A stretch of DNA of 24,168 nt from a virus, in the IMG/VR virus record IMGVR_UViG_3300027980_000096, positions 1 to 24,168 of that record; one strand, written 5' to 3'. Below, piece by piece: positions 6,342 through 24,168 of this stretch. The notes beneath the pieces were generated by a model that did no database searches, was not told the DNA's origin, and saw only the letters and a program-made list of their open reading frames with translations. The position numbers and the translations under genes were made by a program. The first letter of the stretch is position 1, and every line of letters begins with the position of its first letter.

Positions 6342-6415
6342 CTAGAGAACAGCGATTGGCGAAGGTTTGGTGGTGGAAACTTCGTCGCCATAATCTGCGG
6401 TTATTATCAAATTAG
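6338..6415 (+). CDS. Possible 25-residue basic peptide at the end of the early arm
   Basis: The ATG overlaps the previous stop (ATGA), with GGAG four bases upstream. The peptide is basic and tryptophan-rich (KVWWWKLRRHN). Its TAG overlaps the stop of the converging gene on the other strand. Coupling favours translation; the short length means chance cannot be excluded. Confidence 0.35.
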   Translation: MTREQRLAKVWWWKLRRHNLRLLSN

Positions 6416-7031: not shown

Positions 7032-7032
7032 A

Positions 7033-8591: not shown

Positions 8592-8592
8592 A

Positions 8593-8970: not shown

Positions 8971-8984
8971 GACGACCTCCGGGG

Positions 8985-9206: not shown

Positions 9207-9207
9207 T

Positions 9208-9555
9208 TTATCGGCCTGTTTTATCTTCTAACCAGAGGTTAAGAAGTCGATCAACGCTATCTTTGATGTTCTTGGTGCGCTCATCAACGGCTGTGATCTT
9301 GTTACTCAACTCATTGACGTGATCTTTTTGTGTTTTGATATCTGTCCACATCCGACGCCTAATCTCAATGTTGTCGAGGATATCAGCCTCAACGGTTGAA
9401 AGGCGCTGGTCTGTCTCAGCCTTCCATGATGCGCCGACAAACACTAAGGTTAAGGTCTGCATAACAAACGCAAATATCAGGGCAAGTGGAACTTTCTTAT
9501 CTAAGTGCCATGATTGGTGGCGACGTTCGTTACCTTGGTAGCTTTCATGTATCAT
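9208..9555 (-). CDS. TM plus coiled-coil protein, possible i-spanin- or holin-like
   Basis: This 115-residue protein has a polar N-terminus (ERRHQSWHLDKKVP), one membrane helix at about residues 23-44 (LALIFAFVMQTLTLVFVGAS), then a long charged coiled coil to the C-terminus. The SWHLDKKVP lead-in is a pattern I recall from small phage membrane proteins near lysis genes. An N-terminal TM followed by a periplasmic coiled coil is the topology of inner-membrane spanins. The two genes upstream are also TM/coiled-coil proteins. Without an obvious outer-membrane partner, the spanin assignment remains tentative. Confidence 0.78.
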   Translation of the reverse strand: MIHESYQGNERRHQSWHLDKKVPLALIFAFVMQTLTLVFVGASWKAETDQRLSTVEADILDNIEIRRRMWTDIKTQKDHVNELSNKITAVDERTKNIKDSVDRLLNLWLEDKTGR

Positions 9556-9557
9556 AT

Positions 9558-9887
9558 CTACGGGTGGCTCCCGTTGTGCATTTTATAAATCCTATCAGCG
9601 GCCTCGCGTAGATACGTTAATTCTTTCTTAACTTCTGCAATTTCGCGCGACTGTTTGTCGAGGTTGCTGGGTGATAGTATGTTGCCCAGCACGTTGACCT
9701 GATGCTTAAAGACAGCCGACCCGCTTTCGATTGCGTCAAGTCTGTCATTAATCGTGTGCATTTCTGCTTCAATATTCTTGAGGTCTTCGATTACTCGTGA
9801 AAGCTGCGATTTCACAACAGCAAAAGCCCCGGCTAGTGTTGCAACGAGGCTTATAAATTGAACGAGTTCTCTGGCTCCTAATTCCAT
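9558..9887 (-). CDS. TM plus coiled-coil protein, unknown function
   Basis: This is a 109-residue protein. A moderately hydrophobic N-terminal helix (LVQFISLVATLAGAFAVV, about residues 8-26) is followed by a coiled coil, LSRVIEDLKNIEAEMHTIND, and a second helical region. The design resembles DUF2730-type and other phage coiled-coil membrane proteins. The start overlaps the previous stop (TAATG). It is probably an inner-membrane late protein connected with lysis, but no sequence motif proves that. Confidence 0.75.
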   Translation of the reverse strand: MELGARELVQFISLVATLAGAFAVVKSQLSRVIEDLKNIEAEMHTINDRLDAIESGSAVFKHQVNVLGNILSPSNLDKQSREIAEVKKELTYLREAADRIYKMHNGSHP

Positions 9888-10417
9888 TAACAGTCTCCGC
9901 CAGTGCAGCGATTAGCCCAAAGAATTGCGCCAACAACTACCGCCGCCGCCAGCACGCCTACCAATTTGAAACCCTCAAGCATCCAATGATACACGCTGTC
10001 CCAGAATGCTTTGTCCTCGCTTGCCTTTGCTGCCGCCGCCGCTTTAATCTTCTTCTGTTTTTCTGCCTTCGCCGCTACGCGCTTTTCACGCTCATCGACA
10101 ATGCTGTCCCACGTGCCTTGGCCCCACTTTCGGTCGATTTCTTTTTTGAGCGATGCGATTGCCGCCTCTTGTTGACGCGCTTCCAACACATCGTTGGCAA
10201 CAGACGAGATACTAGTCTCGTCGTCGTAGTCTGCGTCGCCGGACCGCATCCTCAAAATTTGCTGCATCCGCGTCTTTGGTTTTTTCTTTTTAGGCGGCTT
10301 GGCTTCCTGTGCAGACAGCAAGTTGTCGATACCGCCGACAATCTCTTTGAGATCACCGGCAGTCTCAACCAGTTTCTTTGCCCCGGCAATGGCTAATCCA
10401 ATCGTTACCGGGTCCAT
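9887..10417 (-). CDS. Tail-anchored membrane protein with basic/coiled region
   Basis: This is a 176-residue protein. It has an Ala/Gly-rich N-terminal helix (VTIGLAIAGAKKLVETAG), a basic patch PPKKKKPKTR near residue 45, a long charged helix (RQQEAAIASLKKEIDRKWGQ and beyond), and a C-terminal TM segment (LVGVLAAAVVVGAILWA) ending in two cysteines (CTGGDC). The C-terminal anchor would leave the bulk in the cytoplasm. It is the first of three consecutive TM/coiled-coil genes after the tail-fibre chaperone. It could alternatively be a structural or membrane-remodelling protein; no family recognised. Confidence 0.75.
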   Translation of the reverse strand: MDPVTIGLAIAGAKKLVETAGDLKEIVGGIDNLLSAQEAKPPKKKKPKTRMQQILRMRSGDADYDDETSISSVANDVLEARQQEAAIASLKKEIDRKWGQGTWDSIVDEREKRVAAKAEKQKKIKAAAAAKASEDKAFWDSVYHWMLEGFKLVGVLAAAVVVGAILWANRCTGGDC

Positions 10418-10419
10418 GA

Positions 10420-10761
10420 TTAGACAGGCTCAACCGGCCAGACAACATCACTCGGACTGGAATATGTCGCTGGGATGTCGCGCAGGGCTTGACGGTAATC
10501 CCGCCATTCATTTGACATGGCAGGCACGTCAGACATCGTTCGCCAATCCGACGCTGCAAGCAGATTGTTTCGAGTTGCTCGAATATCTGACCATGTTAAA
10601 TCTGGATATTGATGCTTTACGACAGCACCGTTTTCGTAGGTGTCCTCAGTCGTCGTGTCGTCGGCAACATCAGCCCATGAAAGTGGGCTTGCTACCGGGA
10701 ACTCCTCACCGTCAGCGACAATCTGCGCGATTCGCGTCCCTTGAATAAGTGCACGTTTCAT
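10420..10761 (-). CDS. Tail fibre assembly chaperone-like protein
   Basis: The ATG at 10761 overlaps the tail fibre stop (TAATG), giving 113 residues. The second half contains WSDIRATRNNLLAASDWRTM and then WRDYRQALRDIPAT, the signature of the phage tail-assembly chaperone family (Phage_tail_APC). These small proteins are encoded immediately after the fibre gene and help fibre folding or attachment. The position here matches that exactly. The N-terminal part (VADGEEFPVASPLSWADV) is also typical of the family. Confidence 0.88.
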   Translation of the reverse strand: MKRALIQGTRIAQIVADGEEFPVASPLSWADVADDTTTEDTYENGAVVKHQYPDLTWSDIRATRNNLLAASDWRTMSDVPAMSNEWRDYRQALRDIPATYSSPSDVVWPVEPV

Positions 10762-13151
10762 TATGCGTACTCCCAAACTATCACATAGCCAGAACCACCA
10801 GCGCCGCCGTTTCGTGCCGTCGTGCCTTGGTCCTGTGCGCCGGAACCACCGCCGCCCGTATTCGCCGCTCCTGCAACGCCAACAGCCGTGTTTGAATTGT
10901 TTGGCGCTGCGCCACCTTCGCCGCCGCCCGTGCCGCCGCGAGGTTGAGGCGTGCCATTGGTAATCTCTGCGGTTCCCCCCGCGATTCCGGTTCCGTCATA
11001 GTCGCCACCAGATCCAGAACCACCAGCGCCGCCAGAACCCGGAACGCCCGCAGACGCGCCCGGCGTAGTGCCGCCAGACCCACCCGTTGCCGAACAATAA
11101 GCCCCGAACGAAGATGTCCCGCCCGTTGACCCATTTGCAGCACCAACACCACCAGCGCCACCAGCGCCGACAGTGACTGTCTCGCTCGATGTTCCTGACA
11201 CGTCGATAAATTCAATAGAGTAGCCGCCTGCGCCACCGCCGCCGCTAGCCATCTCGCCCGCAGTCGTGCCAACACCGCCGCCGCCGCCTCCACCACCAAC
11301 CACCTTGACAAGCACTGATGTGACGCCAGACGGCTTTGTCCATGTGCCGCTAGTCGTGAACACCTGAACCGAGACAAGACGGCCTAAAGTTGCCTGCGCG
11401 ACCCGCAGGGGCGTCATAGCTTTGGTATTGTTTGTTCCAGCCTCTGCCTCTGCTGTTGTAGCTAACTCAACAACCCCAGCCGTGCTTTCAGACGCTGCAA
11501 CTTCGTCGCCAGTGTTTGTGCCACTCAAGTTATTTGCAGTCAGATCACCGCTGTCGTTGATCGTGACGCCGCTGTTCTGCACAAGCTGACCGGACGCGCC
11601 GTCCCATCGCACGACTGCATTGTCGGTCGCAGAACCGGGGCCAGATACATCACCAGACCCAGCACCGTCAGCACCTTTGTCACCGGAACGAGTAAAGCCG
11701 ATGAAAGTATCTTCGCCATCTGCAAACGTACCGCTAGACGCTACGTGCGTCACAGCAATCTGGAACCAACCTGTGTTGTCTGTCAGGTCGGTAATGTTAA
11801 AGGTAGCAACATCACCGCCACCAGTACGGAAGACCAGCGTGCCTTTTACTGTGTTGGTGCTATCGTCAAACAGAGCAATGTAAGCAGACTGATCGACGCC
11901 GTTTTTATCTAAATCGTCGATGGCAATCGCCGTGACACTGGCCACCGTGGCGTTGTTAAATCGGACGTTGCCGCTGCCGGGATCAGCCATTGCCGTGGTC
12001 GTTGAGAAGTCGTAACCGATCACTTGTGCCGCAACAGATGATACGTCGCCGCTAATCCCGGCCACCGTAGTCACGTCAGATGAGATGCCAGCAACCGTTG
12101 TTACGTTAGCAGAGATGCCAGCAACCGTACCAATGTCAGTGCTATCAGCAGCGACCGTTGTTACATCAGATGAGATCCCGGCCACCGTAGTTACATCAGA
12201 TGAGATCCCGGCGACAGTGCCGATATCCGTTGCGTCTGCTGCCACGGCGTTGATGTTAGACGTATTGCCTGCCACCGTAGTTACATTGGCAGAAATGCCA
12301 GCAACAGTCGTGACGTCAGTATCAATAGCTGCAACCGTGTTAATATTGGAAGCGTTGGCAACGGCAGCGTCGATGTTGGTTTGGTCGGCGCTAGTAGGTG
12401 TAGTTTGCTTCCAAGCCGTATTACCTAAATCGTAAAATTTCATTACGTTAAGGGTTGTGTCAAAGTACAACGCGCCGTCAATTAGCGCATCACCATCGTT
12501 ATCAAGGGTTGGGTCGCTTGCTTTTGCACCAAGGTAACGGTCATCAAAGTTGTCGTAAGTCGTCGCGGCTGATGACTCCGATGCTGCTGCTGCCGCCGCG
12601 CTGGCTGCCGCTGCTGTGGCGCTTGCTTCTGCCGCCGCAGCCGCCGTGTCTGGATCAGTGTCAGAATTTTCTAGCGCAGTCCCTGCGTCGTTCCATTTAA
12701 GCGCCTTACCAGCACTAGGATCGGGAACGGTCGTTGAAGCGCCACCGCTGTACGTGTCTGAATACTTAAACGCCTTTTCGCCTTCCGCTGCCGCTTCTTG
12801 AGCTATCAGCGTCAGACGATCAAGCGCGTCCTCATGGCTTTCAGCCGGGAACGGATCGTTTTCAACATAATCCGTTTCTTGCGTCTTGGTGGTGTTGCGC
12901 TTAATGAGCCATTGAACCGTATTAGCTGGAGCCACGGCAGCAGTGACGGTCCCAGTAGTGCCGGAACCGCCGGACACCGTGTAATCAGTCCCGTTTGTTT
13001 TCGTTGTTTCCGCACCCGTCGCAATCGTGCGCTCAATAACAGTCAACTCGGCACTTGTGCTGGTGCCGAAAAACGGAAAAGTAGTTGGGAAGGCGGTTGT
13101 TGAACCATCGCCCGTATAAATCACTTCCGTAGTTGTGCTAGAAATGGTCAT
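10761..13151 (-). CDS. Tail fibre with T7-like N-terminus, 10-residue repeats and glycine-rich tip
   Basis: This is a 796-residue fibre with GAGG upstream of the ATG. Residues 1-130 (GDGSTTAFPTTFPFF, PANTVQWLIKRNT, DPFPAESHEDALDRLT) match the virion-attachment domain of T7 gp17-type fibres. An Ala-rich helical stretch follows, then DDRYLGAKASDPTLDNDGDA, a segment common in marine phage fibres. Eleven 10-residue repeats occupy 266-375 (consensus ISSDVTTVAG). A GDKGADGAG collagen-like bit and a STAGVVELATTAEAEAG motif follow. From about residue 618 to the end the chain is glycine-rich (GGGGGGGG and many GG pairs), after TSGTWTKPSGVTSVLV, which fits Gly_rich-type adhesin tips. It recognises the host surface; the tip decides specificity. 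Confidence 0.92.
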   Translation of the reverse strand: MTISSTTTEVIYTGDGSTTAFPTTFPFFGTSTSAELTVIERTIATGAETTKTNGTDYTVSGGSGTTGTVTAAVAPANTVQWLIKRNTTKTQETDYVENDPFPAESHEDALDRLTLIAQEAAAEGEKAFKYSDTYSGGASTTVPDPSAGKALKWNDAGTALENSDTDPDTAAAAAEASATAAAASAAAAAASESSAATTYDNFDDRYLGAKASDPTLDNDGDALIDGALYFDTTLNVMKFYDLGNTAWKQTTPTSADQTNIDAAVANASNINTVAAIDTDVTTVAGISANVTTVAGNTSNINAVAADATDIGTVAGISSDVTTVAGISSDVTTVAADSTDIGTVAGISANVTTVAGISSDVTTVAGISGDVSSVAAQVIGYDFSTTTAMADPGSGNVRFNNATVASVTAIAIDDLDKNGVDQSAYIALFDDSTNTVKGTLVFRTGGGDVATFNITDLTDNTGWFQIAVTHVASSGTFADGEDTFIGFTRSGDKGADGAGSGDVSGPGSATDNAVVRWDGASGQLVQNSGVTINDSGDLTANNLSGTNTGDEVAASESTAGVVELATTAEAEAGTNNTKAMTPLRVAQATLGRLVSVQVFTTSGTWTKPSGVTSVLVKVVGGGGGGGGVGTTAGEMASGGGGAGGYSIEFIDVSGTSSETVTVGAGGAGGVGAANGSTGGTSSFGAYCSATGGSGGTTPGASAGVPGSGGAGGSGSGGDYDGTGIAGGTAEITNGTPQPRGGTGGGEGGAAPNNSNTAVGVAGAANTGGGGSGAQDQGTTARNGGAGGSGYVIVWEYA
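12027..12356 (-). repeat. Eleven 30-base tandem repeats within the tail fibre gene
   Basis: The block is 330 bases, exactly eleven units of 30 bases encoding 10-residue repeats. Units such as ISSDVTTVAG and ISANVTTVAG occur several times, with DxTDIGTVAG as an alternating form. Some neighbouring units are nearly identical in DNA, so unit number could change by slippage or recombination without breaking the frame. Confidence 0.88.
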
Positions 13152-13188
13152 TGTGCCTGTTCCTCTTGGGCGTTTATATCATAGAAAC

Positions 13189-15204
13189 TCATTGCTTAAC
13201 ACCTTCTTGCGGCCCTAAAGCCTCAATGAAGTCGTATATTTCTTCAGCAATGTATTGTTCTTCTGCGGCAATAGCTAAGAGTTGACCAATCTTACCACCA
13301 ATTTCGCTGGTCGAATTAACTGGTGACGCAAGCCATTTAACAAAGCGCGGAGAAGTCATTAGCTTTGCTATTTGATTAGGAAACAATAATCGCCCCGCCA
13401 CATTTCCTGCCATCCGAGCAGCGCCAGCGGCCATTCCTCCCGGCTGACCAGTTAGACCAGCAACGCCAATGTTTGAAACGTCAATGCCAAGCGCGGAAAG
13501 CGTATCAAGGGCAAATGTTGCACGCGCCGTATTGGAAAAGTTTTTAAGTCTTGCGCTTTCAGACATATCTTTCATCAGGCCAAATAACTCGTCTAATCCC
13601 GTTCGCAATTCAGACCCTTTTGCGCCAAAAAATGCGTCTTTAGCTTCGTCTGCGATATTGCCGTAATTTGTAACGAATGTGTTGATGGAAAACTCTGTGT
13701 CCAATTCATTGCCAATTCGTTTATATCCAAGTTTTTGCAAAACTGTTGCAGAAACATCGGACCATTCTTCCGGCGTAAATTCATTTTTTAGCCGCGTCAG
13801 AACTGTGCCGCCGTCAGTGCGCTCATTCATCAAAAAGCGATAAACTTTTTCCGGCGCGTCATACTTGGCAATTTTATCAAAAAGGTCTTGGTTTGTTGCC
13901 TTCCATTGCGCTTGGAACTTCATTGTCTCGTCCCACTTCTTACGAAGTGCTGCGCCGCCTATACGATCAACCCCATCCTTTAGGTCAGCAGTCATTGCTC
14001 TATAAAGGTCGCTGTATAATGGGCGCTGCAATGCGTCAGTTTCAAACGCTTCTGAGACAATACGAAAGTCTTTTCTTTGTTCTCGAAACATACGATACGG
14101 AATAACGCCATTATTCACTGAGGCGTCAGCAAGCATCCCGTCAATTTGAGCAATAGCCCCCTTGTACTTTGGCCCGAATGTGTTAGGGCTTTGCTCTATT
14201 TTTGCAACCCATTCACTCCGTAGCTTTTTAATGTTATCCAGAGAAAACATCGTATCAGGCCCAATAACCTGATCCAACTCGCCCTCTAACTTGGCAACTT
14301 GAGCATGATAACGCTTTTGCGCCGCACCAACAGCGGCTTGAACTTTAATTCCAGTTTCTTGTTGGGACCGCGCCTTACCGACTTTTGACGCCATTTTGGT
14401 AACAGCCGCCTCAGTTTCCTTGACCACTTTTTCAATTTGGTTCTTCATTCGCGTGGTGGCAGTCGGCGCAGCATCCAGTGCGCTTTCAATGGACCCGGCC
14501 CCACGGCCTCGCGTCACAGCGCCAGCGGTCGGGGTTATGTCATATCCCGTTAATGCTTGGAAAATCTTTTGAGACTTTTGATCTGCGCCGAGAACGCCTT
14601 TAATTGCCTTTGACGCATACGGCAACGCATATCGACCGATTAACTCGCCGCCGCCAGCCATTGCCGACGCTGTGGCTGTGTCAACCGCCATTTCTCCAAG
14701 GGATCGCGTATCATCAACGCCTAAGACGGTGCTGGCGAGAAAATCAACACCAACATCTGCGATTGCTGTTCCGGCAACAGCGCCGCCAACGCCGCCAGTG
14801 ACAGCGCCGACCGTCCCGCCGACCGCTTGAGCGCCTTCGCGCACAATGTCGTAAGTGTCTTTGAGCGTAAAGCCACTGCCAAACAGCCCGCCTTTTGTTT
14901 CGTCAAATAACACAAGGCGTTTTGTTTTAGGGTCGGTATAAACAAAGTTTCCATCGCCGTAAGGTACAGCGTCAGGAAAATGTTTTCTCAATTCAGAAAG
15001 CCGATCTTCTTCTTTCTGCGCTAAATTAACTTTTAAACGAACATCACTTGGCGCACCTGTGCGCTTATCAATAGACGCGTCAAATTGAGGCGTCTGACGA
15101 TAGTTATTGAGCGCCGCGTTAATTTCTTGGTCGCCCCAATCGTCAGGCACGCTAAACGTCATGCCGCCATATTTCAATCTGCGAACCTGACCGGCTTGGG
15201 TCAT
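13189..15204 (-). CDS. Large internal virion (ejection) protein
   Basis: This is a 671-residue protein encoded between the tail fibre and a second large internal protein, with its ATG overlapping the latter's stop. It starts with a small domain (GMTFSVPDDWGDQEINAALN) found at the N-terminus of large phage virion proteins. Residues 125-162 form a glycine/alanine-rich hydrophobic stretch (VGGTVGAVTGGVGGAVAG) able to enter a membrane. The rest is long and helical. Podoviruses place two or three such proteins inside the capsid; they are ejected to build a channel for DNA. There is no sign of a lytic transglycosylase motif. The assignment rests on size, order and composition. Confidence 0.75.
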   Translation of the reverse strand: MTQAGQVRRLKYGGMTFSVPDDWGDQEINAALNNYRQTPQFDASIDKRTGAPSDVRLKVNLAQKEEDRLSELRKHFPDAVPYGDGNFVYTDPKTKRLVLFDETKGGLFGSGFTLKDTYDIVREGAQAVGGTVGAVTGGVGGAVAGTAIADVGVDFLASTVLGVDDTRSLGEMAVDTATASAMAGGGELIGRYALPYASKAIKGVLGADQKSQKIFQALTGYDITPTAGAVTRGRGAGSIESALDAAPTATTRMKNQIEKVVKETEAAVTKMASKVGKARSQQETGIKVQAAVGAAQKRYHAQVAKLEGELDQVIGPDTMFSLDNIKKLRSEWVAKIEQSPNTFGPKYKGAIAQIDGMLADASVNNGVIPYRMFREQRKDFRIVSEAFETDALQRPLYSDLYRAMTADLKDGVDRIGGAALRKKWDETMKFQAQWKATNQDLFDKIAKYDAPEKVYRFLMNERTDGGTVLTRLKNEFTPEEWSDVSATVLQKLGYKRIGNELDTEFSINTFVTNYGNIADEAKDAFFGAKGSELRTGLDELFGLMKDMSESARLKNFSNTARATFALDTLSALGIDVSNIGVAGLTGQPGGMAAGAARMAGNVAGRLLFPNQIAKLMTSPRFVKWLASPVNSTSEIGGKIGQLLAIAAEEQYIAEEIYDFIEALGPQEGVKQ

Positions 15205-17399
15205 TAGATCACTCCACCCGTCAAAAATCTGTCTCTAATTTCAGCCGTGGAGATTTCTCGACCGCTAGGCAACGTGATTACATCATCATTCATCAAGCTG
15301 TCACCGGACATAGAGAGCAATTCATAAGCCTCTTGCATTTCCGGGTCATCTGCGAACAAGCCACCGGCCACCATCTGATCCCTAATTGCAGACATTTCAA
15401 CAACTTGACCATCTGGAAGTTGCACGCTGCCATCAGTGACAACTTGCTCGACCCCACCAGCCAAATCCATAGCTGTTTTCATTTCTCCCGGCGTGGCGGC
15501 GGCGGTGTTTTGCTCAACTGGTGCCACGGCAGCAACGGGCTGCGGCGTTGCCTGTTGAGGTTGCTGTGGTTGCTGCTGAATTGTCGCGGGTTGAGCCGTG
15601 GGCGTCTTGTTTGGCAGGAATTGGTCAAGCGGGACAACTGGGACACCATCTTCGCCCTCAATCATGCGAGCGCGACCGCGCAAATAACTCTCAGGCGGCG
15701 GCGGTGGTGGCGTATAACCTTGTTCCGGCAAAACGAGAGACATACCAGATTGGAAATTGGCGCGTTGCTTTTCCAAAGTTTTCGGTAACTCGTTAATCAG
15801 CTTAACAAGTGTGTCGGCAGTCGGCGCGACATTATCAGGGTCAAGCGTTCCGTCTGAACCCATGTAAAGTTTGCTTTCAAATTCTGTTGTTTGGCCAACA
15901 GCGCCAGTTTCAGCTTTGAGTTTTTGAAGCGTATCCATCAACGCCGTCAACTGCAATTTGGGCAAAAGACCACGGAATGTCGCCGCCTTGCTTTCCGGGT
16001 CGGCAAACGCGGCAACATCGCCATAAACGCCACCAACCCAATTAGCAAACTGGCCATTTTGAGCCTTGATTTTCGCCTCATTGATAGCGTTTTGAATGTC
16101 CTGCGGATTGTCTGTTAGCGGCTCTGTATCAGTCAAGGCAAACAGGGCTTTAACTGCCACCGTATAGTTTTCATGGATTTGATTTGATACATCCTCAAGA
16201 CCTTCGCGTGCCGGGATGTAATTAACCCGCTGATCCATTCTATTAAGATAATCTGGATCATCTGCCAGCCGCGCCTTAACATATTCCGCTTCCTCGCCAG
16301 CCATGACGTTTTCGCCGCGTTTATGCTGCTCAAAAATAACGCGGTCACGATGGTCTTGATCTGTTTTTGGATTATAAACAGGATCAAGCCCCATGACTTG
16401 CCTTGTGTCTCGGTAAATTTGAGAATTGGGATCAAGCGAATTGAGGTAAGCCATGTTTTGCTGAACGGCTGTTGGCTGTAAGCCAGAGGCCCATTTGCCT
16501 GTCGTGATGTAGCTTTGTTGCGCTGGCGTGGCGCGAGTTATATCGGTCACACCCAATTCGCGCATACGCTCCTCACGCGCAAGACTGCGCTCTGCCGCAA
16601 GGTCGGCTCTTGCTTTTTTGTGAACAGCAAGGTCAGTAACCAATTTTTGATATTCCTGCGGCGGCAACGAGTCGATAACGCTTTGTTGTTTTAATTGCCT
16701 TTCAACATCATCATATTCTTCCATTGCAATCATGCGATTGAGACTGCCGACGATCATTGTTCCTTGTGCGGCCTCAATTTTAGAAACCATTTCAAGATTA
16801 TCGTATGATTTGGCAAAATCGCCGTCCTCTTTTGCCAACTTAGCAACAGCGACATTGCCTTCCGCAAGCGTCATATCTCCACGCGCAACAGCGGCAGAAA
16901 TAGTGCCTATTTCCGTATTCCATTCCTCATCCATAATGGCGCGGGTTGCAGAATTATGCTTTGCAATAAATCCAGCCTCTAAGCTGGTGATTTGTTCTTC
17001 AATGCGCTCTTGAAGTCTCGCCCGACTATCCTCGGAGCCAGTATGCGCCTCAAGTGCTTTCGACCTTAAATCTGCGAGGCTTTTCTTGTACGCAAGAACA
17101 GCGTCCTTGCTGTCCATGCCGCGCACGTTTCCACTCGCATCTGGTACGCCTTCAGCCTCAATGCGATCAAATTCATCTTGAGCAGCTTGCGCGAAAGAAC
17201 GAAAATCTTTTCTTCGCGCAACGCCATCCTCTCTTGACTGAATACGCTCCCCTGCCGCCTGTAGCGCACCAGCAACCTCACTAACAGCGCCCGTAATCTG
17301 CGCCATATTGTTTTCGCCAGCCAACGACATAGACGCATATTGCTGCCCTGTCGTACCGGGGATGCTCTGCTGTCTTTGATAAACCGGAACTCGTGCCAT
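15204..17399 (-). CDS. Internal virion (ejection) protein with C-terminal repeated motif
   Basis: This 731-residue protein is mostly helical and charged, including a long N-terminal coiled region (AAGERIQSREDGVARRKDFR and later repeats of E/R/Q-rich helices). Toward the C-terminus there is YTPPPPPPESY, then a Q/P-rich linker (QQQPQQPQQATPQP). The end carries two copies of a 22-residue motif, LPDGQVVEMSAIRDQMVAGG and LPSGREISTAEIRDRFLTGG, 27 residues apart. Order and size match the gp15-like internal protein of podoviruses. The repeated ends may be docking sites for another ejection protein or the portal. Confidence 0.75.
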   Translation of the reverse strand: MARVPVYQRQQSIPGTTGQQYASMSLAGENNMAQITGAVSEVAGALQAAGERIQSREDGVARRKDFRSFAQAAQDEFDRIEAEGVPDASGNVRGMDSKDAVLAYKKSLADLRSKALEAHTGSEDSRARLQERIEEQITSLEAGFIAKHNSATRAIMDEEWNTEIGTISAAVARGDMTLAEGNVAVAKLAKEDGDFAKSYDNLEMVSKIEAAQGTMIVGSLNRMIAMEEYDDVERQLKQQSVIDSLPPQEYQKLVTDLAVHKKARADLAAERSLAREERMRELGVTDITRATPAQQSYITTGKWASGLQPTAVQQNMAYLNSLDPNSQIYRDTRQVMGLDPVYNPKTDQDHRDRVIFEQHKRGENVMAGEEAEYVKARLADDPDYLNRMDQRVNYIPAREGLEDVSNQIHENYTVAVKALFALTDTEPLTDNPQDIQNAINEAKIKAQNGQFANWVGGVYGDVAAFADPESKAATFRGLLPKLQLTALMDTLQKLKAETGAVGQTTEFESKLYMGSDGTLDPDNVAPTADTLVKLINELPKTLEKQRANFQSGMSLVLPEQGYTPPPPPPESYLRGRARMIEGEDGVPVVPLDQFLPNKTPTAQPATIQQQPQQPQQATPQPVAAVAPVEQNTAAATPGEMKTAMDLAGGVEQVVTDGSVQLPDGQVVEMSAIRDQMVAGGLFADDPEMQEAYELLSMSGDSLMNDDVITLPSGREISTAEIRDRFLTGGVI

Positions 17400-17408
17400 T
17401 ATCTTTGC

Positions 17409-17912
17409 CTATGCCAAAAGTGAGAGGCCTTTTGCCCCTGTTAAAAGAGTTGAGCCAGCGTTGAAATAGCTTTGCTTTTGCGCCGCCCTGCCTTCTGCGC
17501 GTCGAAGTGTCGCCGCCTGTTGCGCTGCCGACGCATTCATCTGCCCCCCATACCGGATCGCCAGCGCGTCCAATTCAGCTTCCTCGGCGCTAAACCCTAG
17601 AACGTCACCAGCATCTAACAACTCACCCCCACCAGCGGCGATGTTTGCTCGTTGTGTGCCGCCCATCCGCGCAATCATCGTGCGCTGGCGTTCTTCATCA
17701 TATTCCGCTTTTTGCCGAGCGGCGATGGCTTGGTTTTCGGCAACTTGCGCGTTGTATTGGGCGATCTTGTTTTGGCTACGGCCTTGTTGAATAGAGCCGA
17801 GCGCAGAAACACCCGTCAACGCGCCCATAGCAACGGAAGCCGCTGTGGCCGCTGTAGCTGCCGACGCCTTACTAACGCCTAACGCAATCATTGCTTCTGG
17901 ACCTACACACAT
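17409..17912 (-). CDS. Small internal virion protein (gp14-like)
   Basis: This is a 167-residue Ala/Gly-rich protein with GAAGG before the ATG. The N-terminal third is hydrophobic (SAATAATAASVAMGALTG), followed by a charged helical stretch (NQAIAARQKAEYDEERQRTM) and RMGGTQRANIAAGGGE. The N-terminal hydrophobic helix followed by a QxxxA-rich helix and the GGxxRA pattern are typical of the small ejection protein that precedes the two large ones in many podoviruses. It likely enters the host membrane first during genome delivery. Confidence 0.78.
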   Translation of the reverse strand: MCVGPEAMIALGVSKASAATAATAASVAMGALTGVSALGSIQQGRSQNKIAQYNAQVAENQAIAARQKAEYDEERQRTMIARMGGTQRANIAAGGGELLDAGDVLGFSAEEAELDALAIRYGGQMNASAAQQAATLRRAEGRAAQKQSYFNAGSTLLTGAKGLSLLA

Positions 17913-17913
17913 A

Positions 17914-19965
17914 TCACACCTTCGTCGTATTCAATTCGGGCATAATCGCCACCACACTCATAGGCAATGGTTGATCTTGCACGATGGTTATGTATCCGTC
18001 TTTATCCCACGTTCTCGGAAACTCGACTTCCTTATCACCAGAGAATAGCGCAGGAGGAGCGTCTTGGCTATCGGCAGATGAACGAAACGGAATTAAATCC
18101 AGCGAATCGCTATCCGGCCCCTGCTTTGCGCCCAAGGTTTTATAAAACCGATAGGTGATCCGAGAAATGCGCTTTTTCTTGCCTTGTGCGGTGCCGTCAG
18201 ACGCACCAGCCTCTATCCGTAAGGTTTGGAGCGTCGAAGTGTACGGAAGGCCCACATGGGCGACTGTGGCCGTCCTAGAAAGGGTAACAGAACCACTCGA
18301 CACCGTTACGTCAGGATGCGTTGCGCCATCGGCCAAAACCGACACAGTTTCGCCCTCAAGGTGATCCAATCCGGTAAGCGTCTTAACGCCGCCGCCGCTG
18401 TATGTGAGCATACTGTCAAGAAACGTAGCTTGCGTTGTCGTTGTCGCTCCTTCTGGCAACCCTGCGGTCATAAATTCAACGTGTTGCACCGTCGCGCCGT
18501 TTATTATGCGTTCAACAATTAGCCACAAATCATCGCGTGTGCCGTCCTCGGATGGGATAACAGCCACGCTTTTGACTTTGGCGTTAGTGCCGCCAATGGT
18601 GTGCTTATGCCAGCCCACAACGTCTTGGGCGCGTTCGTATGTCATGCCTAAAAGCGTTCCGTCAGAACGAACCATCCAAACGATGCTGTCCGGCTCTTGC
18701 TGATAGGCCATATCAATCACGCCGCCTTCGGTGATATGTTCTGCGAGAATGGACAAGTCGGGCGCGGTGTATGCGTCAGTTTCAAATTGATAAACGTATT
18801 CTCGCACCTTGCGGGACGCCCGTTGCAAGAACAAAACCGAGTTACCGACTTGCGGCGGCGTAACTTGAGCCGATCCGAACGTGGTCTGCCGCACAACCCG
18901 CGTATTCGTCGGGCTGATCGGGTTGTTCGTGTCGCCCTGCGAAACAATAAATTCACCGCCAGCAGTGCCAACCGAAAGCACGCGCCCCGCACGCATCCAC
19001 CGAATGACGTTCACTTGGTCGGTGGCGATGGTATAGACAAAGCCGTTATCATCGACCACCGTGCCGTCGCGCTCCGTTGGCGCATAATTTTCATAATCAG
19101 CCGACACGCTAAAGAACATTGATTGTGGTCGTTCTGTCGTAGCGCCCCAAACAAGTCTTTGTTCAAAAAAGGTGACAACAGCCGGATATCCGGTCGTATC
19201 ACTAAACGCGCCCAAGCGCCAGTTCTCAGTTGCCGTTCCAGCCGACGCATTTTCTCCGCGAATGGTCGCGGTGACTTGCGTGGCGCTGGTGTAAGCGGTG
19301 ATTTCAAGCCATGTCCAATCACTCGCCGGATCACGCCAGCGAATAGACCGACCCACATCAGTTGACGCGAATGTATTGGCCGACGCCGTGACCGTCACAC
19401 TTCCGGTCGTGCCGGAAAGCGCAAGCGTTGTCGTGCTGGTATTCGTCGCATTATAAGGACCGTCGAGAAAATCAATCTCCGTCAGCGTCCAATTCGTATC
19501 ACCAGTGCGGGATAGCTTGCGCGGCGCGTAATCCTCATGCGCGATATAAAGAACGTCAGCCGACTGCGTAATTACCAACTCAAAAACATCAGACGCAGCG
19601 TATGGTGTCGAAATCTCATAAGCGCCCGTTTTATGAAATTCGATAGAAAAAACACCGTCAAACGGGCCGGACGTAATCTGTCCATAATTCTTGTAAAAGC
19701 GAATGTATTGGTCGCCAAATTCCAGAATATAGGCTTGCGTGACGCTAAATTCGAAAGGCAGTAGCCGCGTAGCGTTGGCGCTCGTTTTTACGGTGGCGGC
19801 ATAATACGTCCCGCCGCGCCTTGCCGCTGGCCCATGCTTTTGAACCAACATATTCGTCATGGTTTGTACGCCATTGGCGTACTTTGACAGATCAACGCGC
19901 CCGTACAGCTTCGGGGATAACTCCCCGGCTGTGAAATTGGTATTCATGGGTGCGGAACGCGGCAT
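17914..19965 (-). CDS. Tail tubular B-like / virion stabilisation protein
   Basis: This is a 683-residue protein. The start MPRSAPMNTNFTAGELSPK, with FTAGELSP then RVDLSKYANG and GPAARRGGTYY, matches a family of podovirus tail proteins of similar length in which residues like LPFEFSVTQAYILEFGDQYI also recur. It is beta-rich throughout. The gene follows the tail tubular A-like gene, its ATG overlapping that stop (TAATG), so it probably forms the nozzle of the short tail. The exact name (tubular protein B or stabilisation protein) depends on the naming convention. Confidence 0.82.
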   Translation of the reverse strand: MPRSAPMNTNFTAGELSPKLYGRVDLSKYANGVQTMTNMLVQKHGPAARRGGTYYAATVKTSANATRLLPFEFSVTQAYILEFGDQYIRFYKNYGQITSGPFDGVFSIEFHKTGAYEISTPYAASDVFELVITQSADVLYIAHEDYAPRKLSRTGDTNWTLTEIDFLDGPYNATNTSTTTLALSGTTGSVTVTASANTFASTDVGRSIRWRDPASDWTWLEITAYTSATQVTATIRGENASAGTATENWRLGAFSDTTGYPAVVTFFEQRLVWGATTERPQSMFFSVSADYENYAPTERDGTVVDDNGFVYTIATDQVNVIRWMRAGRVLSVGTAGGEFIVSQGDTNNPISPTNTRVVRQTTFGSAQVTPPQVGNSVLFLQRASRKVREYVYQFETDAYTAPDLSILAEHITEGGVIDMAYQQEPDSIVWMVRSDGTLLGMTYERAQDVVGWHKHTIGGTNAKVKSVAVIPSEDGTRDDLWLIVERIINGATVQHVEFMTAGLPEGATTTTQATFLDSMLTYSGGGVKTLTGLDHLEGETVSVLADGATHPDVTVSSGSVTLSRTATVAHVGLPYTSTLQTLRIEAGASDGTAQGKKKRISRITYRFYKTLGAKQGPDSDSLDLIPFRSSADSQDAPPALFSGDKEVEFPRTWDKDGYITIVQDQPLPMSVVAIMPELNTTKV

Positions 19966-20567
19966 TAGCTTGTCCCGTTTACATCAACCGTCAAGGATGC
20001 TGCGTAATTCAACCGACTATCAAGCCATGTGTCAGCCACGATCTGCGGCTCTCCGCTTTCCTGACCGTCAATGGACCGCGCATCCGTAATTTTCATGCGG
20101 TAAACTTCCATCATATTTTGATAGAGGCTATTGCTTTCAGCCAGAGGGATTGCCAACTCAGCCGCTAAACGTGCGGAGAGCGCCTCGACAAACATCGGAT
20201 CGTATTGCGTCGGGTCCGTGATCTCGGCCAAATAAATAATTTTTGCCGTGCCTTCGTCAGTCAGCAAATTGCGGCCCTCGATCACGTAAACCATGTCTTT
20301 TTCTTCCATCTGGATTACTCGCAAGCAATCCGTAGGAAGCGCAAAAGAGTTGCCATAACCAAAGGCCGGGGCGGTGGCATTAAGGGCAAGCTGCACGCGC
20401 CGAAGCGCAAAATTCCAAATGTGATCCCGCAAGACAGCGTTACGCACTTGGTCAAAAATCAAATTGACGGCACGCGCCGCCTCGCTGTTCTCGGTAAAGC
20501 TGATGATCGAAGAAGCGCCGATGCGAATTAGCGCATTGTTGGCAATCTGCACATTAGAAGTCGCCAT
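19965..20567 (-). CDS. Tail tubular protein A-like adaptor
   Basis: This is a 200-residue protein with GAGG upstream of the ATG. It has the pattern of tail tubular protein A/head-tail adaptors: NNALIRIGASSIISFTE at the start, then AVNLIFDQVRNAVLRDHIWN, FALPTDCLRVIQM and DPMFVEALSARLAAELAIPL. In the T7 type this protein forms the ring between portal and nozzle. Its place between head genes and the tubular B-like gene agrees. A UUCG-loop hairpin precedes it. Confidence 0.9.
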   Translation of the reverse strand: MATSNVQIANNALIRIGASSIISFTENSEAARAVNLIFDQVRNAVLRDHIWNFALRRVQLALNATAPAFGYGNSFALPTDCLRVIQMEEKDMVYVIEGRNLLTDEGTAKIIYLAEITDPTQYDPMFVEALSARLAAELAIPLAESNSLYQNMMEVYRMKITDARSIDGQESGEPQIVADTWLDSRLNYAASLTVDVNGTS

Positions 20568-20587
20568 TTAGCACCTCAAGGAAAGGC

Positions 20588-20613
20588 GGGGGAATGACCG
20601 AAGCCACTCCCCC
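20588..20613 (-). terminator. Hairpin with UUCG loop between head and tail genes
   Basis: Read on the - strand, GGGGGAGTGGC pairs with GTCATTCCCCC (nine Watson-Crick and two G-U pairs) around a TTCG loop closed by C-G, the extra-stable type. The following sequence (GCCTTTCC) is only weakly T-rich. It may terminate partly, mark an RNA-processing site, or protect the 3' end of the head mRNA. Confidence 0.6.
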
Positions 20614-20621
20614 TGTTTTCG

Positions 20622-21044
20622 TTAGCTGTTTGAGAAATACAGATCAACGACCAACGTGCCGGATGCCGGAAGAGAGGCAACAGCAATGGTGATGAAGATT
20701 TCTTCGTCAGCCGACAACGTAGCCATTGCGCTCGAAGGACCGAACACTTCTGGCGTTGTCGTCGTCTTTACTGCTGCTGCGCGATATTTGCCGGTCGTGC
20801 CGGTGATACCGATAGCAACGGTCGCCGAAGCCCCAAGCGTGGCGCTGTTATTCATAACGCCGTACAGGAAGCTTTCGCCAGCTTTAGCTTTAGCAATGAC
20901 GATGGTGTCAGACGTGGTTTGAGAGGCCAAGGTGATGGTTGCACGCTTTACACGTACATTGCCATCAACAACGCCCCCGTCCGGCAGATCGACAGGAACG
21001 GAATTAAGCAGACCGTTCATTTCTGCGCTGTAAAGGGTAGCCAT
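20622..21044 (-). CDS. Probable head-associated structural (decoration-like) protein
   Basis: This is a 140-residue protein just after the capsid gene, with AAGGAGG before the ATG, indicating strong expression. It is almost entirely beta-like, with many T, V, A and S residues (VKRATITLASQTTSDTIVIA, ATVAIGITGTTGKYRAAAVK, EEIFITIAVASLPAS). No cysteine, membrane segment or signal is visible. Small beta-rich proteins placed behind the capsid gene often decorate or cement the head. The name is inferred from place and composition; I do not recognise a specific family. Confidence 0.75.
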   Translation of the reverse strand: MATLYSAEMNGLLNSVPVDLPDGGVVDGNVRVKRATITLASQTTSDTIVIAKAKAGESFLYGVMNNSATLGASATVAIGITGTTGKYRAAAVKTTTTPEVFGPSSAMATLSADEEIFITIAVASLPASGTLVVDLYFSNS

Positions 21045-21058
21045 GTTTCATGCCCTCC

Positions 21059-21934
21059 TTATTCTGTGCAAGGCGCTTCAAGAACACGCTTTTCTTCCAT
21101 CCGAGTGCCGCCGATGGCCATCGAAAGGAATACTTGGGTCGCGTAGTTCTTATCAGCACGCTCGCTGATTTTGGTCACAACGTCTTGACCAAGGCCAAGC
21201 AGCAGACCGTCCATTTGGAAGGCGAAGCAGCGGCGGTCGCCGTTGCCATCCACCGGCACCAACTTGGAACCGTCGATGCGGTTGCCGTTGACGCTGATGA
21301 ATTTGAAGCCCATGAACGTATCGACTTCGCCACGAGCCAGTGCCTTGACCGTATTGAAATCCGAACTTTTGATTTCAGTGGTGTTCAGCAAAGATTTGAT
21401 CTGGCTGGCGGTGCAAACGATGCAACGGCCTTCGTCCGGCACATCGTCGCCGTCAAAGGTTTCTTTGATCGAAAGCAGAGTCGTCAGGTTCATGTTAGAC
21501 GCTTGCGCCGAAAGGGCGGTTTGCGCTGCCGTTGCCGTGGAGCCGGAAACGCCCGTGTAGGCGGTGCCGAGCGCCGCGTCGATCAGAACTTCGTCCATCG
21601 CACGGCCCATTGCTTTCGCGGCGGCTTGTGCGTATTGCGAAGTCGGATCAATCAGCATCCGAACCTTATCTTCATTATCAATCAGGTCGGCCCAATCGAA
21701 ATCTTCCAGAGAAACCCGGCGACGAGCGTGCGGGGTGTCGATCTGCGGAGTATCCGCATGACGCGACGGACGGCGACGAGCGGCGGTAGCGCCGATCTGC
21801 TCAAAAAACGCATTTTTGCCGACAACAGCTTCTTCACGAATTTCGCCCCGCAACTTGGACCCGTCTTGCTGGACAAGGTGCTGAACATTCGCTGAATACT
21901 GCTCGACAAAGGCGGTGGTAACTTGAACGGACAT
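21059..21934 (-). CDS. Major capsid protein (Phage_capsid_2-like)
   Basis: The ATG at 21934 is preceded by AAGGAGA, giving 291 residues; in-frame codons upstream to 22000 lack a ribosome site. The N-terminal third carries NAFFEQIG, then ARRRPSRHADTPQIDTPHAR and DFDWADLIDNEDKVRMLIDP, and the helix AAAKAMGRAMDEVLIDA. This pattern fits the BPP-1-like capsid group. The C-terminal part (QMDGLLLGLGQDVVTKISER then AIGGTRMEEKRV) is the usual end of such shells. It would form the icosahedral head around the scaffold. It is separated from the scaffold operon by a terminator, so it may have its own promoter. Confidence 0.9.
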   Translation of the reverse strand: MSVQVTTAFVEQYSANVQHLVQQDGSKLRGEIREEAVVGKNAFFEQIGATAARRRPSRHADTPQIDTPHARRRVSLEDFDWADLIDNEDKVRMLIDPTSQYAQAAAKAMGRAMDEVLIDAALGTAYTGVSGSTATAAQTALSAQASNMNLTTLLSIKETFDGDDVPDEGRCIVCTASQIKSLLNTTEIKSSDFNTVKALARGEVDTFMGFKFISVNGNRIDGSKLVPVDGNGDRRCFAFQMDGLLLGLGQDVVTKISERADKNYATQVFLSMAIGGTRMEEKRVLEAPCTE

Positions 21935-22222
21935 TATCCATTCTCCTTTGTTGAATGTTACAGTTTGGTTTTGCGGGGTGTCGCCAATATGACGGCCCAA
22001 AAGCGCCTAAACTCTTGAGCGGGTCCGATGCGGAGTGTCCACAAAGATTGAAAGGCGTGGCTAATATAACACACTGTGGCAAGAAAGAAACAGAAAAAAT
22101 ATTTCCAAAAAACCTGTAACTTTTCTGATTTTTTTTCGTCCAACCCCTAAGAAAAACAAAAAACAAACGTCATACTAAATGAACATCAACAAACGGAGCG
22201 CCCCAAGGGGCATTTAAATACC
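21935..22222 (-). other. AT-rich intergenic region upstream of the capsid gene
   Basis: No convincing leftward gene is seen here; the open frames are shadows. The stretch 22080-22200 contains long A and T runs (including eight T in a row at about 22126-22133), in contrast to the neighbouring coding DNA. CAGAAAA and TTTTCTG form a weak inverted repeat within it. It holds a candidate promoter for the capsid gene and the leader of the opposite-facing small ORF. Confidence 0.6.
22063..22071 (-). promoter_or_regulatory. Possible extended -10 promoter for the capsid gene
   Basis: Read on the - strand, TGTTATATT is an extended -10 element (TGn followed by TATATT). It lies about 130 bases before the capsid ATG and has a T-rich stretch upstream. 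No good -35 lies at 16-18 bases. A phage-specific promoter cannot be excluded. Confidence 0.35.
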
Positions 22223-22381
22223 ATGATTACACAGCAAAAAATCAACGAAGTACGCGCTTTCCTCAAACTTGAAGCTAAAGTCTTAAACGATCCAGAACTT
22301 ATGGCTTTAATAAACATGATGGATGACAACAACATCCTCACGCTATGCGAAATCGTAAATAAAGAATATACAGAGCAATAA
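22223..22381 (+). CDS. 52-residue ORF facing against the late genes
   Basis: An ATG at 22223 opens a 52-residue frame on the + strand between the scaffold and capsid genes, both of which are on the - strand. AAGGGG lies 12 bases upstream, a weak fit. The peptide is a credible small helical protein (VRAFLKLEAKVLNDPELMAL, then MMDDNNILTLCEIVNKEY), with no repeats or biased composition. Its TAA shares bases with the T-tract of the leftward terminator. It could be a regulatory peptide, an accessory gene, or chance. No + strand promoter close to consensus is evident. Confidence 0.5.
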   Translation: MITQQKINEVRAFLKLEAKVLNDPELMALINMMDDNNILTLCEIVNKEYTEQ

Positions 22382-22419
22382 AAAAAGCGCCCCCGCCAAA
22401 TATGCAGTCTGGCGGGGGC
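22380..22419 (-). terminator. Canonical intrinsic terminator between scaffold operon and capsid gene
   Basis: Read on the - strand, GCCCCCGCCA pairs perfectly with TGGCGGGGGC (10 pairs, 11-base loop), followed by GC and seven T. This is the clearest intrinsic terminator in the window. It lies about 27 bases after the AT-hook gene. In the + direction no T-tract follows, so it acts on leftward transcription only. Confidence 0.88.
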
Positions 22420-22445
22420 TGGCGGCGGGTAACAAGGGGAAGGGA

Positions 22446-22601
22446 TTACCCGTCGCCTTTGGGCGGTCGTCCTCGACGTTTTGGCTTTTCGTCGCCCCCT
22501 TTGATCCACTCGTAATAGGTTTGAGCGTTTTTGACCGTCAAATCGGGCTGTCCAGCCTGACCTAATTCAAGGCATTTAAGTTTCAATTCCTCGTCGGTCA
22601 T
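22446..22601 (-). CDS. 51-residue AT-hook-like protein coupled to the scaffold gene
   Basis: The ATG at 22601 overlaps the stop of the scaffold gene (ATGA). The 51 residues run MTDEELKLKCLELGQAGQ, continue through NAQTYYEWIKGGDE, and end KPKRRGRPPKGDG. The final segment has the RGRP core of an AT-hook with flanking lysines and arginines, which binds the minor groove of AT-rich DNA. Small GRPPK-tailed proteins occur next to head genes in other phages, but their role is not settled. DNA binding during packaging or transcription control of the adjacent AT-rich region are both possible. Confidence 0.72.
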   Translation of the reverse strand: MTDEELKLKCLELGQAGQPDLTVKNAQTYYEWIKGGDEKPKRRGRPPKGDG

Positions 22602-23422
22602 GCCGCGTCACCGTGAGCGCGTTCAAACAACCGCTGCACTTGTTTAACCAAGCCAGCGTGTTCCGGGTGACGGCGATTTGTATAAGCCGGGTTTGCCATA
22701 ATCTTTTGAGCCTCAAGGCGTGCCTCTTCTGGCGTGAGAGCCGTCTGGCCACCGTTGGTCGGGCCAATCAACTCTTTGTCCGGCATCGTCGCCTTGGCGA
22801 TTTGCGCAAACGCCTCAAGCACTGCGGGGTGATTTCCGAGACCAGATGTGTCCATGATTTGAGCAAGATCATCGCCGCCGTACTTTTCAAACGCTTTCTT
22901 CGCAAAATCGACATTCTGATCGTAAGCCCTGCCCCATTTTTCACGCAGCGCCGCCTCGCCTTCTTCTAGCGAAGCCGCTTGCTGATCGGCCATTTGCGAC
23001 ATACCTTGACCTTGCAGTTCAGCGTACCAACCAAACAATTCGGAGACTTGCTGCTGGTTCATGCCAAGCGAATGCGCCTTTTCCCGAAAAGCGTTCATCG
23101 TGCCTTCGTCAAATGCCGACTTCACTTCGTCAGGGATATTTTCCGGCAAGGCCAATTCGTATTCAGTCGCATCTTCTGGCCGACCGAGAAAATTATAAAC
23201 ATCGTTCCAATCGTCCTCGGTGACGGGCTTGCTGATCTTGTCCCGGCCAAGGTGCGATTGCAGATTGATATGCGCTGCCGCCAGCTTTTCAATGCTGTCG
23301 TATTTCCCAAGCGTGGGGTTTTCTCGAATGTCCTCCGGCAAGGACGAGCGCCACGTTTCTTCTGCGGCGGTCGCTTCCGGTGCCGCAGTATCCGCTTCGG
23401 CGGGTGCGTTTTCTTCAGACAT
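22598..23422 (-). CDS. Head scaffolding protein
   Basis: The ATG at 23422 follows AGGAG by ten bases; an in-frame TTG at 23431 lies too close to it. The 274-residue protein has an acidic Ala/Glu-rich N-terminus (ENAPAEADTAAPEATAAEE), then WRSSLPEDIRENPTLGKYDS, and YELALPENIPDEV, all typical of phage scaffold proteins. The middle is helical and the C-terminus is basic (RRHPEHAGLVKQVQRLFERA), as expected for the capsid-binding end. Gene order portal, Bbp19-like, scaffold, capsid supports the call. It directs assembly of the procapsid and then leaves. Confidence 0.88.
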   Translation of the reverse strand: MSEENAPAEADTAAPEATAAEETWRSSLPEDIRENPTLGKYDSIEKLAAAHINLQSHLGRDKISKPVTEDDWNDVYNFLGRPEDATEYELALPENIPDEVKSAFDEGTMNAFREKAHSLGMNQQQVSELFGWYAELQGQGMSQMADQQAASLEEGEAALREKWGRAYDQNVDFAKKAFEKYGGDDLAQIMDTSGLGNHPAVLEAFAQIAKATMPDKELIGPTNGGQTALTPEEARLEAQKIMANPAYTNRRHPEHAGLVKQVQRLFERAHGDAA

Positions 23423-23672
23423 TGCTTTCAATCTCCTGTGCTAATTCAAGGAACCGCTCCGGCGTTTCATCCAAAGCGGTAAGGATCATAAGGGCTGCGT
23501 TACGCATGCCCTCATTAAAAATGGCGTCCTCCGGCCTTTGTCCGTGGACATAGGACGGTTGCAGGACGCCACACTCACGGCAGATGTGAGACAAGACGCG
23601 CTTGCCCTCATTGGTGCCGAATACTAAACGATAATCAGCTTTGAGCGACTTCGTTGGCTGACTTTGCGACAT
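23415..23672 (-). CDS. Bbp19-like phage protein
   Basis: This is an 85-residue protein with AAAGGGG before the ATG. The sequence YRLVFGTNEGKRVLSHICRE, then a CGVLQPSY, the EDAIFNEGMRNAALMILTAL helix and a final acidic helix, fits the Bbp19 family of phage BPP-1 and relatives, whose members sit between portal and scaffold genes. Two cysteines (CRECGV) are nearby. The biological role is not established. It overlaps the portal end by 38 bases and the scaffold start by eight. Confidence 0.85.
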   Translation of the reverse strand: MSQSQPTKSLKADYRLVFGTNEGKRVLSHICRECGVLQPSYVHGQRPEDAIFNEGMRNAALMILTALDETPERFLELAQEIESNV

Positions 23673-24168
23673 TTACACCCCTTTCAATCAAGCCCATCGC
23701 TTGTTCACCCGCCGCCATTTGCTGCATCATGGCTTGGGCTTGCGCTTGGGCTTGTTGTTCCTCTTGAATTTCATTATCGGTCTTGAGTAGTTGCGGCGGC
23801 ACGCCGTTAATGTCGGCAATATACCGCACCGTGTCTGCGCCTTTAATCGTTGCGGCTGCTTGCGGGTCAAACGCTGCAACCGGGCCAGCTAATTCGAGCG
23901 TTCGCATAATTCCTTGCGTTTCTTGCTGACGCTGCGCTCGTGCCAACGGCGACACGTATTCGATTTGAAGATCAGCGCCTTCGATCACTTCCGGCGGCAT
24001 CGGCATGCGGTCAGAACGAACCAACACGCCAAAAATGCGCTCAATCATTGGGCCGAGAAATTCAGACTGCAAGCGTCCCAAGGTGGGGCCAAGCAGTCGC
24101 AACGTGCGCTCTGTGCGTTCAATGACTTCCGTCGCAGTCATCTGCGGCCCACCTTGGAACTGCAACTG
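23635..24168 (-). CDS. Portal (head-to-tail connector) protein, C-terminal part only
   Basis: The frame is open to the right edge, so the true start is outside the window; 177 residues remain. Visible are GGPQMTATEVIERTERTLRL, LGRLQSEFLGPMIERIFGVL and the ADLQIEYVSPLARAQRQQE segment, characteristic of T7-like head-tail connector portals, then a Q/A-rich helical tail (QEEQQAQAQAQAMMQQM). Portal proteins form the twelve-fold ring through which DNA is packaged. It overlaps the next gene by 38 bases. Confidence 0.88.
   Translation of the reverse strand, partial: QLQFQGGPQMTATEVIERTERTLRLLGPTLGRLQSEFLGPMIERIFGVLVRSDRMPMPPEVIEGADLQIEYVSPLARAQRQQETQGIMRTLELAGPVAAFDPQAAATIKGADTVRYIADINGVPPQLLKTDNEIQEEQQAQAQAQAMMQQMAAGEQAMGLIERGVNVAKSANEVAQS

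Follow-up and report, generated by a model that had tools for sequence, protein, structure and literature searches.

The units that most resemble the locus analysed here are known from several phages. In phage T7, the capsid gene (gene 10) is placed in a unit with the promoter phi10, a structured 5' leader, the epsilon enhancer and the terminator T-phi. Phage morons are small genes that carry their own signals and are inserted between conserved genes. Phages of the HTVC010P type are widespread in the sea. The enhancer of the T7 gene 10 leader has also been described in PMC8748333, where an epsilon-type enhancer was not needed in Agrobacterium. In phage HK022, putL and putR are short two-stem RNAs with internal bulges, and the phage operon is read by the host polymerase (PMC9378689). 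In Skadi, an HTVC010P-type phage, no RNA polymerase is encoded and the host polymerase is used, and its authors identified neither terminators nor riboswitches (PMC10504331).

In the present study, a window of 24,168 bases, which is a whole IMG/VR virus record, was analysed. Herein, we propose, as a reading about as probable as its negation, that the capsid gene in this window would form a separately transcribed unit whose mRNA starts with an unrecorded structured leader, the biochemical role of which is suggested below. This arrangement is similar to that of T7 gene 10, as the capsid gene would lie in its own unit with a terminator-like site downstream and, in many relatives, the leader is followed by an A/U-rich stretch and a Shine-Dalgarno site. 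An epsilon-like (TTTAACTTTA-like) sequence was observed in 23 of 53 leaders compared with 4.8% of shuffles, the window matching 7 of 10 positions, below the cut. However, in the window the predicted promoter is of the host extended -10 type and not one for a phage polymerase, a terminator lies upstream of the capsid gene, and the leader is a conserved RNA with two modules and a proposed pseudoknot. The likeness to the HK022 put RNAs, which is one of description and not of alignment, concerns a short, bulged, two-stem RNA at or near the start of transcription, whereas the present leader belongs to a late capsid unit, occurs in one copy, and has a proposed pseudoknot and paired identical loops.

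Probable division of the late region ahead of the capsid gene

The window carries the late genes of an HTVC010P-type podovirus. Its capsid protein is homologous (57.5% identity with the Pelagibacter phage HTVC010P protein), and the gene order is connector, scaffold/assembly protein, small gene, capsid and tail tube. The structural genes run leftward from the scaffold/assembly protein through a 51-aa AT-hook protein to the capsid, and the same order of scaffold/assembly protein, small protein and capsid is observed in HTVC010P itself. The N-terminal part of the AT-hook protein resembles the HTVC010P hypothetical protein AGE60278.1 (36% identity, 39 alignment columns). The AT-hook protein (minus strand, 22449-22601; KPKRRGRPPK) has no match in Pfam or NCBIfam, though it is kept beside the leader across the clade. 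Between the stop of its gene (22446) and the capsid ATG (21934) there is a gap of 511 bp, in agreement with the 510 bases of the initial annotation. The features of this region are as follows.

22446..22601, minus strand: AT-hook gene, 51 aa, directly upstream of the terminator and conserved in the clade
22380..22419, minus strand: intrinsic terminator, hairpin at 22419-22389 and T-tract at 22386-22380
22063..22071, minus strand: predicted capsid promoter, extended -10 (TGT-TATATT, hexamer at 22068-22063), 6 nt upstream of the leader RNA
21943..21947, minus strand: Shine-Dalgarno sequence AGGAG of the capsid gene, 8 nt ahead of the ATG
21059..21934, minus strand: major capsid gene (Pfam Phage_capsid_2, PHROG 3437)
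20588..20613, minus strand: terminator-like hairpin beyond the next gene after the capsid gene; this hairpin would close a short capsid unit

The minus-strand terminator that had been noted between the AT-hook and capsid genes is present. The hairpin has 12 pairs (9 G-C) and a loop of 7, followed by GCTTTTTTT, and it shows the form of an intrinsic terminator, namely a G+C-rich hairpin with an immediate T-tract 3' of a gene on the same strand. When both strands of 6300-24168 were scanned, it was the strongest terminator-like site; its RNA fold has an energy of -25.8 kcal/mol (z -2.9), equalled by 1 of 200 shuffles. The T-tract is present only in the leftward direction, the rightward one being absent. 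Among the relatives L002-L018, nearly all have a similar hairpin and T-tract after the AT-hook gene (weak in L006, unclear in L013). These comparisons support a late region that would be split by a terminator, kept in position in nearly all close relatives and acting at 22380..22419 with an efficiency that is presumed. At the place corresponding to the second hairpin (20613-20588), strong terminators are observed in L020 and L057; this hairpin would be either a target for a put-like leader or simply the boundary of a T7-like capsid unit.

With the late transcript split, the initial annotation had argued, the capsid gene would need its own promoter or an antitermination system, and the small opposite-strand ORF in the gap might regulate the switch. 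The first half of this reading holds, in that the terminator would divide the late region and a conserved promoter-like site, probably that of the capsid gene, is located just downstream of it; the second half, concerning the ORF, is not supported. In 15 of 20 distinct sequences, the spacing between a -10-like box (at least 4 of 6 matches to TATAAT) and a conserved GCCTT is exactly 6 nt, compared with 0-7 of 20 for the other spacings. In other groups (L030, L036 and L039), TTGACA..TATAAT or TGA-TATAAT is observed ahead of the leader. In the window, the -35 region adjoins an insertion and contains no recognisable -35. Promoter-like matches as such were no commoner than in shuffles, and one match at 21961-21933 was discarded because it overlaps the Shine-Dalgarno region. 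Since the -10 box stands 6 nt ahead of GCCTT, the predicted start of the transcript coincides with the first pseudoknot strand of the leader.

Structure and distribution of the capsid leader RNA

The remaining ~165 bp of the gap hold a structured RNA, which the initial annotation did not mention, with the following parts.

21974..22056, minus strand: conserved leader RNA core, consisting of the 5' pseudoknot strand, module 1, the P3 hairpin and module 2
22019..22042, minus strand: module 1, GUGG-ACAC-UCCG..CGGA-C-CCGC, with a 4x1 internal loop
21998..22017, minus strand: P3 hairpin, CAAGAG..CUUUUG
21975..21998, minus strand: module 2, GGG-C-CGUC..GGCG-ACA(C)-CCC, with the internal loop of module 1 in the opposite strand order

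Both stem-loops carry one 4x1 internal loop, in which AYAA or AYAC stands against C. The layout of module 1 is stem-G-AYA(A/C)-stem-loop-stem-C-C-stem, and module 2 has the same loop with the strands exchanged. The loop of P3 (AGGCG, 22008-22004) can pair with the strand at the 5' end (CGCCU, 22057-22053) as a pseudoknot. The covariance model R1 (79 positions, 19 pairs) was built from six co-linear relatives, to which the others were fitted, because the 5' strand and module 1 were out of register in the first MAFFT alignments. With R1, the element was recovered in the window (34.9 bits, E 5e-6) and in the other close relatives, each time within the capsid leader; no second copy was found anywhere in the 24-kb window, the record being a fragment.

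In the first alignment, 97.5% of cells are paired and 13 of 19 pairs have changed on both sides, a count that takes in two weak matches (L031 and L091); the controls gave 0 of 500 shuffles and 31-54% for slid versions. In a deeper set, 98.4% of cells are paired and 11 of 19 pairs are compensatory. Because the alignments had been fitted to the structure, the counts lean in its favour; most rows are gap-free in the helices. The compensatory changes exceed both shuffled and slid controls, and this covariation is strong: the capsid leader is a conserved structured RNA. It is the capsid-sense RNA that folds, since on the opposite strand the frequent U-G pairs (columns 19/43 and 98/112) would turn into A-C mismatches. 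For the pseudoknot, at least 5 pairs are possible in 20 of 20 distinct sequences, with an invariant core (GCCT/AGGC); the variation comprises a single position where T-A is replaced by C-G, together with changes of the end pairs, and covariation thus lends it thin support, the core being nearly invariant. P3 fails in L015 and L016. Single-sequence folding energies of the leaders are ordinary (z -0.1 to -1.9) and were rejected as proof of structure.

The leader is similar to Rfam cis-leaders and riboswitches in being a conserved 5'-UTR RNA with a proposed pseudoknot upstream of one gene family, but it differs in that none of the 4,227 families of Rfam 15 matched at gathering score and no expression platform was seen. 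A permissive search gave six matches, all far below gathering score and all over the terminator region instead of the leader core, and a known RNA family was rejected. By eye, no alternative pairing that would sequester the Shine-Dalgarno site or form a terminator was seen inside the leaders; regulation, if any, would therefore not take the usual riboswitch form. Binding sites for CsrA/RsmA (GGA) were set aside, as several modules have AGA before the loop. No report of the leader RNA was found in open-licence papers. The leader would add a new RNA family to annotation. Its recurring AYAA(C)/C loop, which is used in both strand orders and on stems that change, offers a well-defined object for structural studies.

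In a scan for the loop module, at least one module was observed in 78 of 88 capsid leaders (35 + 54 - 11), compared with 1.4% of 1,760 control stretches (0.45% and 1.0% by strand order); the scan itself selects for pairing and many of the leaders are related, so that the argument depends solely on the contrast with the controls, and a few single matches may be due to chance. Group-B pelagiphages have two modules, both in the second strand order, and in 20 group-B cores, chosen by the loop letters and not by pairing, the outer stems covary (50 of 55 versus 35.5 in shuffles, and 35 of 35 versus 29.6). When exact patterns were searched in IMG/VR, all 28 matches of group A were located 100-107 nt before a capsid gene, and 64 of 75 matches of group B preceded a capsid gene, 2 of the other 11 being on truncated contigs; as these patterns were derived from capsid leaders, the lack of other contexts is informative for close copies only. 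The module also precedes related capsid genes in GTDB genomes of Alphaproteobacteria (L196-L199 and L207). In HTVC028P (L092), in Skadi-3 (L219) and at most capsid genes that are more distant, the scan found none. Module 1 is present in the cultured phages HTVC010P, HTVC034P, HTVC203P, HTVC100P, Greip and Lederberg, and also in alphaproteobacterial genomes, so the leader RNA is open to experiment.

Several single cases deserve mention. In HTVC010P (L082, 5660-5830), module 1 overlaps the 3' end of a small upstream gene, and the same bases appear to serve both as codons and as RNA structure. In a contig of Candidatus Phyllobacterium onerii (L207), both modules lie ~70 nt apart upstream of position 5001; the capsid gene is 52% identical and belongs to a named bacterial isolate, making this a candidate for a tractable prophage. 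In alphaproteobacterial prophages, some of them from the rumen (L202, L203, L205, L206 and L218), a terminator is located directly ahead of the capsid ribosome site and is possibly an attenuator; in these and in L200, which also has a terminator before that site, the leader module is absent.

Possible roles of the leader

The sequence comparisons can be combined into the following proposal. First, leftward transcripts of the portal, scaffold and AT-hook genes would end at the intrinsic terminator, and the host RNA polymerase would restart at the extended -10 promoter just downstream. Second, the capsid mRNA would start with a compact RNA, its first nucleotides pseudoknotted into the loop of P3, with the two stem-loops that carry the AYAA(C)/C loop on either side of P3 and then an unpaired stretch and the Shine-Dalgarno site. 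Third, such a leader would secure high and lasting capsid expression, with the 5' end of the mRNA protected and the ribosome site held open, and with possible tuning through a protein bound to the paired modules. The stabilising role is one that we infer; the pairing of the 5' end, the position before the gene of the most abundant structural protein, the open Shine-Dalgarno region and the epsilon-like sequence would favour a leader that secures expression. Terminator, promoter and structured RNA together offer a concrete and testable account of how capsid expression might be set apart without a phage RNA polymerase. A broader and tentative reading, which we consider rather doubtful, is that a new class of phage RNA acts on the host RNA polymerase or on a dedicated protein and switches on the structural operon without a phage polymerase; this class would contain the internal-loop module twice, in either strand order, with a knotted 5' end, before the capsid gene of most HTVC010P-type phages.

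A little less probable still is that the leader is a translational operator, to which a putative binder (the capsid, scaffold, AT-hook or a ribosomal protein) attaches and adjusts capsid synthesis. Two copies of a module with conserved loop letters (A-Y-A-A/C, C) and freely changing stems, as in a binding site, are what such an operator would show, the leader is strictly tied to the capsid gene, and a neighbouring gene encodes the small basic AT-hook protein. However, ~27 nt separate the leader from the Shine-Dalgarno site, which is not overlapped, and in group-B relatives, for example L039, the modules are present and no AT-hook gene was seen in the gap. Improbable, and more so than an operator, is a put-like RNA that modifies the host polymerase during its departure from the promoter, so that the enzyme ignores the terminator after the capsid unit and reads the long tail operon; the put RNAs of HK022 suppress downstream terminators by way of the beta-prime zinc-binding domain. 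HK022 putL, an RNA of ~70 nt with two bulged stem-loops, is located immediately downstream of its promoter and works independently of phage proteins (PMC9378689); reliance on the host polymerase in Skadi and the terminator-like hairpin downstream of the capsid unit in the window and some relatives would fit this idea. Yet each stretch searched holds a single leader copy, which belongs to the late capsid unit (in the 24-kb window it precedes the capsid gene); HK022 carries two copies, one at each of its two early promoters, and neither a pseudoknot nor paired modules have been described for put. A leader that secures capsid expression is the reading that we prefer.

The insertion and its opposite-strand reading frame

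Two further features lie in the upstream part of the gap.

22100..22379: window-specific insertion, net 286 bp, ~36% GC, between the terminator and the capsid promoter
22223..22381, plus strand: orphan 52-aa ORF, predicted three-helix mini-protein

The 52-residue ORF that had been reported on the opposite strand is present, and its stop (TAA, 22379-22381) shares bases with the T-tract of the terminator (22380-22386), because a junction of the insertion is located at that place. The word "inserted" in the initial annotation proved literally true: in L002 and L003, both flanks are 90-96% identical to the window in DNA sequence and the 286-bp block is absent. The AT-rich stretch was likewise found, the block having 36% GC versus 52% in the window. 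Both junctions lie in A/T tracts, the flanking alignments overlap by 8 bp, and in the closest relatives the site of the missing block is the A/T tract at the end of the terminator. A short gap (172-252 bp) is seen in all other close relatives too, so an insertion in the lineage of the window is the simpler reading, compared with loss in the others, given only these relatives.

The block would be a moron-like insertion at a spot between terminator and promoter. It is a small, AT-rich orphan insertion of deviant base composition, present in one phage and missing from close relatives in which the flanking genes are adjacent. It differs from a moron in that the insert is reversed relative to the operon, the T-tract of the neighbouring hairpin serves the leftward direction only, and no promoter of its own was identified for the ORF, there being no promoter-like site on the plus strand of 21000-23500 and no rightward T-tract at the hairpin.

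Whether the ORF is a gene was judged from several results. In a first-order Markov region, an ORF of at least 52 codons from ATG on either strand arises with P = 0.14 (0.32 when GTG and TTG starts are allowed), and its length alone is not significant. Its codon periodicity (period-3) has P = 0.001 and its frame scores best among six, in a test run on a single ORF already chosen. A single-sequence AlphaFold2 model gives three compact helices (pLDDT 92.5, pTM 0.71), compared with 75.3 and 0.40 for an out-of-frame 52-codon control, the only one used. Periodicity and model are modest evidence that the ORF may be a real small gene, which would presumably be expressed. The search for homologues gave none among 50,697 phage records, in peptide-pattern scans of IMG/VR, in the records of 16 relatives or in Pfam/NCBIfam; the best PHROG match had E 0.03, the sole plasmid match E 4, and a fold search of the model against viral and PDB libraries gave no match below E 2. 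Records very close to the window are excluded from some of these searches, and the pattern scan matches exact peptide words only; near-identical or distant copies may therefore have escaped detection.

A considerable, if lesser, possibility is that the ORF is not a gene and the insertion is neutral spacer DNA. An ORF of this length is expected in 14% of matching random regions, it has no homologues and no clear promoter, and 12 nt, a long spacing, lie between GGGG and its ATG, all of which would suit a spacer; the period-3 signal, the best-scoring of the six frames and the confident model relative to its one control speak against it. That the ORF encodes a phage regulator of the terminator or of the capsid promoter is very improbable and was rejected, despite its place between the two, its coding-like periodicity and its confidently modelled small helical fold, since it is missing from close relatives that share the gene order and retain terminator, promoter and leader, an outcome that the initial annotation had itself named as a refutation and which puts the ORF outside the core switch, and an orphan with neither homologue nor structural match is unlikely to regulate a conserved one. 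The reversed ORF is a private insertion, and the conserved parts are the terminator, the predicted capsid promoter and the RNA leader. In L013, a different, lysine-rich ORF of 84 codons is observed on the capsid strand in the same gap (-438 to -183 from the capsid start), which suggests that the gap between the AT-hook and capsid genes may be a permissive spot for the insertion of small genes.
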